Positions 12,137-22,575 of a DNA stretch of 64,000 nucleotides are shown here, piece by piece. The stretch's first letter is position 1. Each line of letters begins with the position of its first letter. The stretch lies in assembly GCF_004214815.1 (NCBI RefSeq), contig NZ_CP035926.1, positions 930,001 to 994,000 of the forward strand, written 5' to 3'. The translations under genes and the position numbers were made by a program. This DNA comes from Aliarcobacter thereius LMG 24486 (lineage in GTDB: Bacteria > Campylobacterota > Campylobacteria > Campylobacterales > Arcobacteraceae). The notes under the pieces were generated by a model, which saw nothing but the letters and a program-made list of their open reading frames with translations, did not search any database and was not told the origin of the DNA.

Positions 12137-13405
12137 TTACTTTAATGCTTGGTAAGCAATATCATTTCTAAATTTTTTACCATCAAAATTTATCTCTGAT
12201 GATAATAGATATGCTCTATCTCTAGCTTCTTTAATACTATTTCCTAAACCAACACAAACAGCAATTCTTCCACCATTTGCCATAAGTTTATTATCTTTTC
12301 TTGAAACACCAGCAAAACTAATATGAGAGTTATTTAATAGCTCTTCATCAACAATATTTGATAAAGATATAATTGTAGGTGCACTTGAACTATATGGATA
12401 GTTTTCACTTGCCATAACAACACCAACTGCATATTTGTTTTTTATTTTAATATCTAATTTATCAAGTTGTTTTGTAGCTCCATAATAAAATAGTTCTGAA
12501 ACTTTTGAATCAATTAAAGGCATTAAAATTTCACATTCAGGATCACCAAATCTTACATTATATTCTAAAACTATTGGTTCACCTTTTACAACCATAACTC
12601 CGATAAATAGAACTCCTTCAAAAGGAGCTTTCTCTTCTTGCATTCCTTTTAAAGTTGGTTTTATAACTCTCTCTTCAATTTTTTTATAAATAGTTTCATC
12701 AACTAAAGGTGTTGGAGCATAAGCACCCATTCCACCTGTATTTGGTCCAGTATCTCCATCCCCTACTCTTTTATGATCTTGAGCTGCTGGTAATACTTTA
12801 TAGTTTTCTCCATCACAAATAGCAAAAACAGATAACTCATATCCATCTAAAAACTCTTCAACAACTACTTTTGCCCCAGCTTCTCCAAAACTTTCTCCAC
12901 TTAACATATCTTCAACAGTTTGTTTTGCTTCTTCTTTGCTTTGAGCTATTATTACACCTTTTCCAGCACAAAGACCATCAGCTTTTACAACTATTGGAAG
13001 ATTATTCATACTATCAATAAATTTATAAGCTTCATTTTTATTACTTGTTTCTATAAATCCTGCTGTTGGAATATTATATTTTTTTAGAATATTTTTCATA
13101 TATGCTTTTGAACCTTCAAGCTGAGCAGCTGCCTTACTTGGACCAAAAATTACTAGATTTTCTTTTTTAAATATATCAACAACTCCATCAACCAAAGGAG
13201 ATTCAGGACCAACTATTGTTAAATCTATTTTATTTTCTTTAGCAAAACTAGCTAATTTATGATAGTCTTTTATATCAATATTTTCACCTAAATCAGAAGT
13301 AGCTCCATTTCCTGGCATAAAATATAGTTTGTGTGCATTTTCTTTTTTTAGTGCAAGTCCAATAGAGTACTCTCTACCACCACTTCCAAGTATTAAAATA
13401 TTCAT
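12137..13405 (-). CDS. purD: Phosphoribosylamine-glycine ligase (GARS)
   Basis: Second step of de novo purine synthesis: ATP-dependent joining of glycine to phosphoribosylamine. The start reads [19 protein letters not shown], followed by [15 protein letters not shown] and an ATP-grasp core with [11 protein letters not shown]. The characteristic [21 protein letters not shown] loop and the metal-binding [10 protein letters not shown] are present. It is full length at 422 residues. The ribosome binding site AAAGGGA lies 7 bp before the ATG. The 6S-like RNA sequence is immediately upstream. Confidence 0.97.
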
Positions 13406-13422: not shown

Positions 13423-13610
13423 TTATAAATCCCAAGTAGTCGTTAATCATAAGGTGGCCCTAAAAGCCAAATATATATACAAGAGTATACTTTAGGAGCA
13501 AAAACATAATGAATCGCTACACACTGTATAACTACAAAGATGTATAAAAATAAAATTATCGGACCCGCAGTAATGAAAATCCCGTACCACTCAGAGTTCA
13601 GGATTTTATC
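13423..13610 (-). ncRNA. ssrS: Probable 6S RNA (RNA polymerase-binding regulatory RNA)
   Basis: No convincing protein-coding frame fills this interval, yet its sequence is less AT-rich than other spacers and can fold into a long, interrupted rod. CTGAGTGGT near the 5' side pairs with ACTACTTGG near the 3' side, GGTCC pairs with GGGCC further in, and ATAAAATCC can pair with GGATTTAT as an outer closing stem. The segment GGGTCCGATAATTTTAT resembles the beginning of the 6S central bubble in E. coli (gagccGATATTT). A TAAAAT -10 box near 13604-13609 would start the RNA near 13597. The position upstream of a purine gene fits 6S neighbourhoods. The exact ends are uncertain; a structured purD leader is the alternative. 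Confidence 0.55.
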
Positions 13611-20731: not shown

Positions 20732-20908
20732 TTATTTTTTTAAATTATTTGTTGAATATGTTTTTATTGGTTTTAGCTCTGCTTTTATCAAGCTAAGTCT
20801 TATATCTGGTAGTTTTTCTAAATAGTTTTCAATCTTTGAGTAAAATCTATTTATTTTTGCACATGAAGTTGCCATTAATATACCAAAAAAGCTAAAGTAT
20901 TTTTTCAT
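20732..20908 (-). CDS. Small lipoprotein-like protein at head of the btu operon
   Basis: A 58-codon frame that fills the space between the TauE/SafE gene and the TonB receptor gene. The ATG at 20908 is preceded by a strong AAAGGAGG ribosome binding site. The protein starts with Lys-Lys and a short hydrophobic stretch ending ILMATSCAKIN, a possible but non-canonical lipobox with Cys16. It then continues as a charged amphipathic tail rich in Lys, Leu and Ile. The stop is 12 bp before the receptor start. I do not recognise the family; the coding status rests on the ribosome binding site, spacing and operon position. Confidence 0.6.
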   Translation of the reverse strand: MKKYFSFFGILMATSCAKINRFYSKIENYLEKLPDIRLSLIKAELKPIKTYSTNNLKK

Positions 20909-20940: not shown

Positions 20941-21654
20941 TTAGTGATTCATATTATTATGAATAGAATCTTGTGTATGTTTTATAACTATATAGCCTTT
21001 ATATGCTGTATAAAGTCCAAAAACTATTACTAAAATTGCTGAAATTTTCATAAATATATCTTTTAAGCTTGATTGTTTAAATAATCCTACAAAAAAACCA
21101 ACCAAAAATAGTGCTGGAATTGTAGAAATACCAAAAATAAACATAATAAGAGCTCCATTTAAAGCACTTGCTGTGCTAGCTGCCATTATTGCAAACATAT
21201 ATACAAATCCACAAGGTAAAAAACCATTTAAAACTCCTATAAAATAGAAGCTAAATAAAGAGTTGTTTCCTAAAACCTTTCTAAACATTTTTTGATAAAA
21301 AGGTGTTTTTGAACAAGATTGTTCAATTATTGTAAGAAATTTTATTTTTCCCATTAAAGAAAAACCAATTAAAATCATAATTAAACCTGTAATAAAAAAT
21401 AAAATTCCTTTTGAGCTATTTGAAAAAGCCACAACAGAACCGATAAATCCAAAGATAAATCCTAAAAATGTATAAGATGAAACTCTTCCAAATGAGTAAA
21501 GTAAATGAACTAAAATTTGTTTTGATTTACTTTGTTCTACTCCTATTTTTGCACTTGAATACGCAAGAACTATTCCTCCACACATTCCAATACAGTGACC
21601 AAAAGATCCAAAAAAAGCAATTCCAATAACAGTAAGTAAGCTTATAGTTTCCAT
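20941..21654 (-). CDS. TauE/SafE-UreH-type membrane protein (HCxGMCGG family)
   Basis: A polytopic inner-membrane protein of 237 residues with about six hydrophobic segments. The signature FGHCIGMCGGIVLAYS near the N-terminus and a second LNGFLPCGFVYMFAIMAAS define the DsbD_2/UreH-like group. Relatives have been tied to copper or haem delivery for cbb3 oxidase, which is family knowledge, not shown here. The Cys pairs could bind metal or shuttle electrons. A short His/Asn-rich tail (HTQDSIHNNMNH) could also bind metal. It is followed by the small btu-head gene. Confidence 0.8.
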   Translation of the reverse strand: METISLLTVIGIAFFGSFGHCIGMCGGIVLAYSSAKIGVEQSKSKQILVHLLYSFGRVSSYTFLGFIFGFIGSVVAFSNSSKGILFFITGLIMILIGFSLMGKIKFLTIIEQSCSKTPFYQKMFRKVLGNNSLFSFYFIGVLNGFLPCGFVYMFAIMAASTASALNGALIMFIFGISTIPALFLVGFFVGLFKQSSLKDIFMKISAILVIVFGLYTAYKGYIVIKHTQDSIHNNMNH

Positions 21655-21702: not shown

Positions 21703-21740
21703 TAAAAAAAGGCTTTACAGAGGGAAAAACTGTAAAGCCT
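21703..21740 (-). terminator. Orphan rho-independent terminator (minus strand)
   Basis: An 11-bp perfect stem (AGGCTTTACAG with CTGTAAAGCCT) with a 9-base loop is followed on the minus strand by seven T residues. No minus-strand protein gene ends upstream of it, since the next gene is plus-strand, so it most likely ends a non-coding transcript. Confidence 0.85.
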
Positions 21741-21828
21741 GTATAATATATTCAATTCATTTCAAAAAAAGTATAGGATACTAAAAATTGTATTATTTAG
21801 TAGGAGGATAAATACTAATATCCTATGA
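21704..21828 (-). ncRNA. Candidate small RNA with CCUCC anti-Shine-Dalgarno loop
   Basis: About 125 nt lie between a perfect TATAAT box (minus strand, 21839-21834) and a strong terminator with no open frame between. The predicted 5' half forms a hairpin: ATAGGATA (21826-21819) pairs with TATCCTAT (21780-21773). Its interior exposes UCCUCCUAC, complementary to a Shine-Dalgarno sequence. The remainder is an AU-rich single-stranded linker followed by the terminator stem. The architecture resembles trans-acting sRNAs that block ribosome binding sites. Transcription is inferred, not observed. Confidence 0.55.
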
Positions 21829-21833
21829 AAAGA

Positions 21834-21839
21834 ATTATA
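21834..21839 (-). promoter_or_regulatory. -10 box (TATAAT) of the candidate sRNA
   Basis: The minus strand reads TATAAT preceded by CTTCTAC, giving a start site near 21827-21828. No clear -35 element is seen, which is normal for campylobacterotal sigma-70 promoters. Confidence 0.5.
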
Positions 21840-21945
21840 GTAGAAGAAATATTAAAATAAGATAAAAGTTGTCCTATTTGAAATAAATCTTTTACTAATA
21901 TTAAAACTATATAATACAAATCCAATTTAACTGAGGTGATATTTT

Positions 21946-22575
21946 ATGAAAATGATTATATTTGATATGGATGGAACCCTAATTAATAGTGGTTCAACGA
22001 TTGCAAACTGTGTAAATCATGTAAGAGAAAATATAGGTTTACAAACTATGGACAAAAGTTATATTTTAGAAAATGTAAATGATATAAATATAAATAGTTC
22101 AGAATTTTTTTATAATAGCAAAACATTTACTCCACATATTACATCTTTATTTGAAGACTTTTATGCAAAAAATTGCTTAATTGATCTTCATATTTATGAT
22201 GGAATTAAAGATATTTTAGATGATTTTAAAAATGACTTTAAGTTTTGTGTTGCAACAAATGCTCATTCTGATTATGCAAGAAAAATGTTGGATTATCTTG
22301 ATATCCAAAAATACTTTTCTACAATTTTGGGTTATAACGATGTTAAAGAACCAAAACCAAATCCAGAAATGATAAATATAATTTTGGATAAATATGGAGC
22401 AAAAAAAGAGAATGTAAAAGTAATTGGAGATTCTATAAAAGACACAACAGCAGCTTTAGGAGCTGGTGTAAATGGGATTTTAGTAAACTGGGGATTCTCA
22501 AATTATGAAAAAAATAAAAATGTTTTAAATAGTGTTGAAGAGTTAAGAGAAATTCTAAAAACTTCTATTAACTAA
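21946..22575 (+). CDS. HAD-superfamily phosphatase (phosphoglycolate phosphatase-like)
   Basis: A cytoplasmic phosphohydrolase of 209 residues. Motif I is FDMDGTLIN, with nucleophile Asp8 and acid Asp10. Motif II is the Thr in CVATNAHS, the motif III Lys is in KEPKPNPEM, and motif IV is VIGDSIKDTTAA. A helical cap (about 20-80) follows motif I, the Gph/PGMB arrangement. The ribosome binding site GAGGTG lies upstream. Its tail overlaps the convergent pseudouridine synthase gene by 21 bp. The substrate cannot be assigned. Confidence 0.88.
   Translation: MKMIIFDMDGTLINSGSTIANCVNHVRENIGLQTMDKSYILENVNDININSSEFFYNSKTFTPHITSLFEDFYAKNCLIDLHIYDGIKDILDDFKNDFKFCVATNAHSDYARKMLDYLDIQKYFSTILGYNDVKEPKPNPEMINIILDKYGAKKENVKVIGDSIKDTTAALGAGVNGILVNWGFSNYEKNKNVLNSVEELREILKTSIN

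Follow-up and report, generated by a model that had tools for sequence, protein, structure and literature searches.

A conserved small RNA of Arcobacteraceae with an anti-Shine-Dalgarno loop and ccoN as its main predicted target

To our knowledge, Hfq is generally absent from Campylobacterota, and targets are known for few of their sRNAs. Elsewhere, RyhB, PrrF and FsrA are iron-sparing sRNAs that are controlled by Fur and work with Hfq or Fbp chaperones (PMC9410917). The staphylococcal sRNA IsrR is Hfq-independent, and its C-rich single-stranded loops pair with the Shine-Dalgarno (SD) sequences of mRNAs for respiratory and Fe-S enzymes, including fdhA (PMC9410917). IsrR is conserved across the whole genus with little sequence change in its stems; it is a longer RNA with three C-rich regions, is controlled by Fur through boxes that have been tested, and has nitrate-related enzymes as its main targets (PMC9410917). 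In Helicobacter pylori, RepG uses its terminator loop to bind a homopolymeric G-repeat in tlpB (PMC8295292), and SmelA075 and SmelA099 of Rhizobiales consist of three or four hairpins, each carrying CCUCCUCCC (PMC3927594). Our literature search found no paper describing sRNAs in Arcobacter; a study of CemR in A. butzleri reported respiratory control and made no mention of a small RNA (PMC11334517).

The locus described here lies in a window of 64,000 nucleotides, the whole stretch of Aliarcobacter thereius LMG 24486 DNA that was analysed. Its minus strand carries a TATAAT box at 21839-21834, followed by a long hairpin whose loop contains UCCUCCUAC, then an AU-rich linker and finally an intrinsic terminator, with the following features in window coordinates:

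21858..21876, minus strand: operator-like dyad TAGGACAACTTTTATCTTA, covering the -35 region and the bases just upstream of it, with one mismatch to TAGGAYAANNTTTATCCTA
21834..21839, minus strand: -10 box TATAAT, read from the sequence and retained in most of the sRNA alignment
21704..21826, minus strand: sRNA gene with a likely transcript of about 123 nt (predicted), from promoter and terminator anatomy and conservation
21774..21824, minus strand: stem-loop 1, with outer stem AUAGGAUAUU/AGUAUCCUAU and inner stem GUAUU/AAUAC, from fold (z -4.87) and covariation
21796..21808, minus strand: anti-Shine-Dalgarno seed AUCCUCCUACUAA in the loop of stem-loop 1, near-invariant across genera while the stems vary
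21745..21773, minus strand: AU-rich linker with a conserved UGAAAUnAAUU element, from alignments
21704..21742, minus strand: intrinsic terminator with U7, from sequence, fold and covariation
20941..21654, minus strand: DsbD_2-domain membrane protein, the first or second gene downstream at every locus

A stretch of 126 nt folds at -26.4 kcal/mol, compared with -13.5 +/- 2.65 for shuffles (z -4.87). Stem-loop 1 exposes UUUAUCCUCCUACUAAA, and the seed is mostly unpaired in predicted ensembles. The terminator (AGGCUUUACAG-UUUUUCCCU-CUGUAAAGCCU, then U7) ends near 21704 and was missed by the automatic terminator scan solely because its loop of 9 nt exceeds the 8 nt that the scan allows. The upstream neighbour, a HAD phosphatase, starts at 21946 on the plus strand, and the locus has no upstream minus-strand gene that could account for the terminator. 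A preliminary description of this DNA had noted the TATAAT box, the hairpin with its loop and the terminator with a 7-T tail on the minus strand, with no protein gene to explain the terminator, and all of this stands. Its transcript size of about 125 nt was nearly right: the likely start, A21826, shortens it slightly. The lack of Hfq on which it drew likewise holds for this genome (1.9 Mb, one contig), in which we found no Hfq gene. An Rfam search of the sRNA returned no family above its gathering score, the best being ncr1241 with an E value of 0.93, far below that score. Elsewhere in the window, the purD RNA motif (RF01069) scores above its gathering score at 13430-13535 on the minus strand, upstream of purD at 12137-13405.

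By DNA search, copies of the sRNA are present in 29 of 31 Aliarcobacter genomes, and the two genomes without a match have fragmented assemblies, of which one is 54% complete and the other consists of 210 contigs. The covariance search in related genomes that the preliminary description had proposed extended this range: a first model (R1) added copies from four more Arcobacteraceae genera and a second (R2) additional ones in genus g33. The models thus give about 49 genomes in five genera, and one more copy, in the g33 genome G079, was recognised by eye through the loop pattern. An order-wide search of 299 genomes outside Arcobacteraceae gave no convincing match. Within the searches, one match of query part 110-154 (L003, at 317411) lies inside a coding gene and was rejected as chance.

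Among 45 sequences from five genera, 18 of 24 base pairs show double compensatory changes, spread over all three helices, compared with 7.8 +/- 1.5 in shuffles, although these counts lean towards the model's structure since the alignment was fitted to it. Such changes affect 7 of 10 pairs in helix 1, 4 of 5 in helix 2 and 7 of 9 in the terminator helix, where 99.5% of cells are paired across genera. The preliminary description had staked its case on the conservation of loop and stem, and both are seen: the loop CCUCCUACUA hardly varies across genera and the stems covary. Within Aliarcobacter the sequence of the outer stem is invariant, and in g33 it is wholly different with its pairing kept and the loop CCUCCUACUACUAA retained. 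Since the stem sequence was replaced there and the loop was not, the loop of stem-loop 1 is, on these alignments, the selected element. The sRNA might instead act through a protein, or combine base-pairing with a protein bound to the conserved stem or to the AU-rich linker. The outer stem that never changes within the genus, the linker element UGAAAUnAAUU conserved over genera and a genome without Hfq would all suit such a role, but the complete replacement of the stem sequence in g33, with pairing and loop maintained, makes it very improbable. As a separate observation, three g33 genomes (G093, G082 and G079; loci L310, L317 and L327) share a further conserved hairpin whose loop holds CTCCTCCTACTAATTT; on the opposite strand this reads AATTAGTAGGAGGAGACTGA, closely resembling the ccoN start region, and no terminator was seen.

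Taken by its anatomy, with its own promoter, an intrinsic terminator, no ORF and a conserved structure, the locus belongs with trans-acting anti-SD sRNAs in general, and its exposed, conserved pyrimidine loop is predicted to be complementary to the SD regions of unlinked genes. Judged from sequence, the sRNA gene is genuine and previously uncatalogued, and occurs in about 50 Arcobacter-type genomes.

Candidate targets were ranked among the start regions of 800-kb samples of two genomes, G019 and, from another genus, G035. These partial genomes, in which genes were not picked by function, knowingly include ccoN, which opens the cbb3 oxidase operon, and in G019 also a gene for a TsdA-like cytochrome; the ranks relative to all other genes are unaffected by this choice. 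In G019, ccoN ranked first of 759 start regions (-18.9 kcal/mol) and the cytochrome second (-18.8). In G035, ccoN was first of 731, at -19.9 kcal/mol with the next region at -16.2. When CCUCC was kept and its flanks permuted, the median ranks of ccoN and the cytochrome fell to 16.5 and 18.5, and only 3 of 60 such control loops placed both in the top two. Pattern searches in 104 genomes of the family agree with these ranks. Among the matches listed for TAGTAGGAGG followed by a start codon, about 55 are ccoN, and the reversed pattern is almost absent; the loop complement UAGUAGGAGG ahead of a start codon is found roughly once in each genome, in most cases at ccoN.

We read the ccoN start region in some 65 genomes. 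Its UUAGUAGGAGGAGAUUG is invariant in the sRNA-bearing genera, save for one Aliarcobacter group, this window's species included, in which the site is UUUGUAGGAGGA, and a single g39 genome with UUAGUAGGAGGAAAUUG. The UAG extension of the site is missing in g2, g5, g7, g31, g32, g40 and g41. It is present in g29, g30, g36 and g38, where neither the model nor the loop pattern identified an sRNA, which counts against the proposed pairing; the loop-pattern search in these four gave mostly matches without hairpin and terminator. When each sRNA was paired with the ccoN of its own genome, leaving aside G108 with its loop variant UCUCCUACU, contiguous pairing reached 9-15 bp in nearly all genomes and was weaker in G005 and G012 (7-8 bp). 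The altered loop CCUCCUACAAAAUU of G020 pairs perfectly over 15 bp with its own ccoN, and in G016, G023 and G024 a U-to-A change in the loop matches an A-to-U change in ccoN. This co-change is suggestive; however, seven relatives combine a changed ccoN site with an unchanged loop, so that it is not clean covariation. This species and six relatives have one mismatch between loop and ccoN beside the 9-bp core, and the match here consists of 9 bp plus a flanking piece.

The preliminary description had proposed that the RNA blocks ribosome binding at AGGAGG-like sites, with the small gene at the head of the neighbouring btu-like genes (start about 20908) as its target. Our results support an anti-SD loop and point to another target. 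Extended pairing with the 20908 start region, over 11-12 nt, is confined to this genome and its close relative G009; in other genomes only an ordinary AGGAGGA core matches the loop. The small gene was therefore rejected as a conserved target, although it may be a local extra one. In this genome its predicted duplex reaches -16.5 kcal/mol, compared with -17.5 for ccoN, and by predicted pairing ccoN is the better-supported target. A general anti-SD sRNA without a main target, hitting many mRNAs with strong SDs, would account both for the long duplex that the small gene forms in this genome and in G009 and for the fact that CCUCC matches any strong SD. We consider it unlikely: the loop is conserved beyond CCUCC (UACUA), permutation of its flanks mostly abolishes the top ranks of ccoN and the cytochrome gene, and other genomes do not keep the extended match to the small gene.

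Beyond ccoN, the anti-SD loop may reach further respiratory mRNAs. Within the genus, a scan for AGTAGGAG with a start codon recovered, among others, ccoN, fdhA, the TsdA-like dihaem cytochrome, ammonia-forming nitrite reductase, the small subunit of NiFe hydrogenase and cytochrome b561, as well as proteins that we take, by eye from their sequences, to be rubrerythrin-like and hemerythrin-like. Over the whole of this genome the pattern is not enriched (31 occurrences, 32 for the reversed pattern), and the sites of fdhA and the cytochrome do not track the loop change of the G016, G023 and G024 group. In G019, proteins with haem or Fe-S motifs make up 2 of the 20 top predicted targets and 21 of all 759 start regions, which is not a significant enrichment; ccoN and the dihaem cytochrome thus lead the predicted targets there without a class-wide trend.

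The sRNA lies on the same strand as, and just upstream of, a gene for a DsbD_2-domain protein in all 45 loci, and the genes on its other side differ. In many genomes the DsbD_2 gene is followed by a small strong-SD ORF and then a TonB receptor; the receptor and binding protein of this window look like vitamin B12 uptake proteins, with scores under the NCBI cut-offs. The window's own small ORF, at 20760-20908 on the minus strand, has a very strong SD (AAAGGAGGA), and its counterparts often lie after the DsbD_2 gene and before the gene for the TonB receptor. At L005 and other loci, about 70-180 nt past the sRNA start, we also observed a gene for a small protein with DSDCGM and FHDHGGMANWL motifs; by eye it resembles NosL-type copper chaperones, has no Pfam or NCBIfam match, and precedes the DsbD_2 gene in many genomes, being missing from that position in this window.

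Such constant company over five genera, with upstream genes that vary, is what would be expected of a cis-acting leader, that is, an attenuator or riboswitch in the 5′ UTR of the DsbD_2/TonB-receptor operon with the terminator as its switch. Yet we saw no antiterminator: upstream of the terminator, the longest complement to its 5′ arm averages 4.5 nt, against 4.8 nt in shuffles. The terminator stems also covary by themselves. Moreover, a -10-like box stands between the terminator and the first gene in 41 of the 45 loci, though AT-rich DNA contains many such boxes. The anti-SD loop, and not a junction of the ligand-pocket kind, is the best-conserved part, and no Rfam riboswitch matched the sRNA. 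We therefore regard a leader as improbable; the missing antiterminator and the -10-like boxes favour, though they do not prove, an independent sRNA.

The promoter of this sRNA offers a hint of its control. Of the 29 sRNA promoters in the genus, 27 have the dyad TAGGACAAnTTTTATCTTA at a fixed position, with 14-16 of 17 nucleotides matching, and only 1 of 450 control stretches reaches 13 or more. The dyad lies about 12 nt farther upstream in the other two and at most g3, g6 and g39 loci, and was not seen at the g33 sRNA loci. The best matches in this genome are at sufB (0 mismatches), at nifU, the sRNA and tpx (1), and at mrp/apbC (2). The name nifU comes from Pfam; sufB is presumed from its sequence, and tpx and mrp are assigned by eye. 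Two TAGGAYAAnnTTTATCCTA dyads were observed between the divergent sufB-like and nifU genes (G000:C1:682895-683042; L239, L240). A weaker dyad occurs about 154 nt upstream of ccoN in most members of the genus; dyads are also found at napA in both sampled genomes and, in G019, at genes that by eye are SOR-, KatG- and AhpC-like. With a loose pattern, total counts do not exceed the reversed control, so that we give weight only to the strongest sites and to the dyad's fixed place in the promoter. Although its spacing, GATAA-N3-TTATC, is similar to that of Fur-type boxes, the sites inspected mark genes for Fe-S assembly, peroxide defence and respiration rather than iron uptake. The gene set thus looks like an Fe-S/redox regulon, and the dyad is possibly an undescribed Fe-S/redox operator of Arcobacteraceae. 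As the same dyad is found upstream of ccoN and napA, the sRNA would form a feed-forward loop.

The gene anatomy, conservation, covariation, pairing ranks and shared dyad computed here lead us to a Hfq-independent, trans-acting sRNA linked to Fe-S or redox status, whose loop would occlude the SD of ccoN and probably those of further respiratory mRNAs; we give this reading a probability of roughly 0.6. From the same data we infer transcription, the direction of control (repression) and the physiological signal. The sRNA would be transcribed from its own promoter, and a regulator common to Fe-S assembly, peroxide-defence and respiratory genes would bind the dyad, which overlaps or adjoins the -35 region, and thereby set the sRNA level. 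The loop of stem-loop 1, presenting CCUCCUACUA, would then pair with the SD region of ccoN (UAGUAGGAGG in most species, UUUGUAGGAGGA here) and, in several species, with the mRNAs of the TsdA-like dihaem cytochrome c and formate dehydrogenase, and this pairing would block 30S binding. Under poor Fe-S or redox status, the feed-forward loop would reduce the production of respiratory enzymes rich in iron and haem. A broader scheme is more tentative, and we place it somewhat short of an even chance: a family-wide sRNA of Hfq-less Campylobacterota, under an Fe-S/redox regulator, that represses ccoN by SD occlusion, with the regulator also acting on ccoN transcription, a mixed feed-forward loop that would rewire terminal respiration.

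Among the described systems, IsrR is alike in its Hfq-independence, its C-rich anti-SD loops on respiratory mRNAs, its genus-wide conservation and its little-changed stems; in contrast, the Arcobacteraceae sRNA has one loop, another dyad and ccoN as its main predicted target, and the two have no known relation in sequence or synteny. With RyhB, PrrF and FsrA it shares a predicted logic of fewer iron-rich respiratory proteins, and with FsrA also a C-rich anti-SD motif, but it comes from a genome without Hfq and has no Rfam match. RepG belongs to the same class of bacteria and likewise joins a C/U-rich loop to a G-rich mRNA leader, whereas the seed found here sits in stem-loop 1, aims at the SD itself and lies at another locus. 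Identity with RepG was rejected, as the terminator loop is C/U-rich in Aliarcobacter only and altered in g3, g6, g33 and g39. SmelA075 and SmelA099 are similar in their conserved CCUCC-type loop and stems of variable sequence; the single hairpin with CCUCCUACUA plus terminator, in place of several CCUCCUCCC hairpins, led us to reject identity with them as well. The best reading, by analogy, is an sRNA that works like RyhB or IsrR and is not homologous to either.

Overall, sequence comparison indicates a new family of sRNAs that belongs to a known kind and whose candidate target and regulon are unusually clear. The sRNA is conserved over several genera; its seed is sharply defined, and one predicted target, central to microaerobic respiration, stands out as the best. 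Its promoter motif is common to Fe-S assembly and peroxide-defence genes. Together these features make it a directly testable case of Hfq-free iron- or redox-sparing control in a group that includes food-borne and aquatic species, where the sRNA probably adjusts respiration to changing iron-sulphur or redox conditions.
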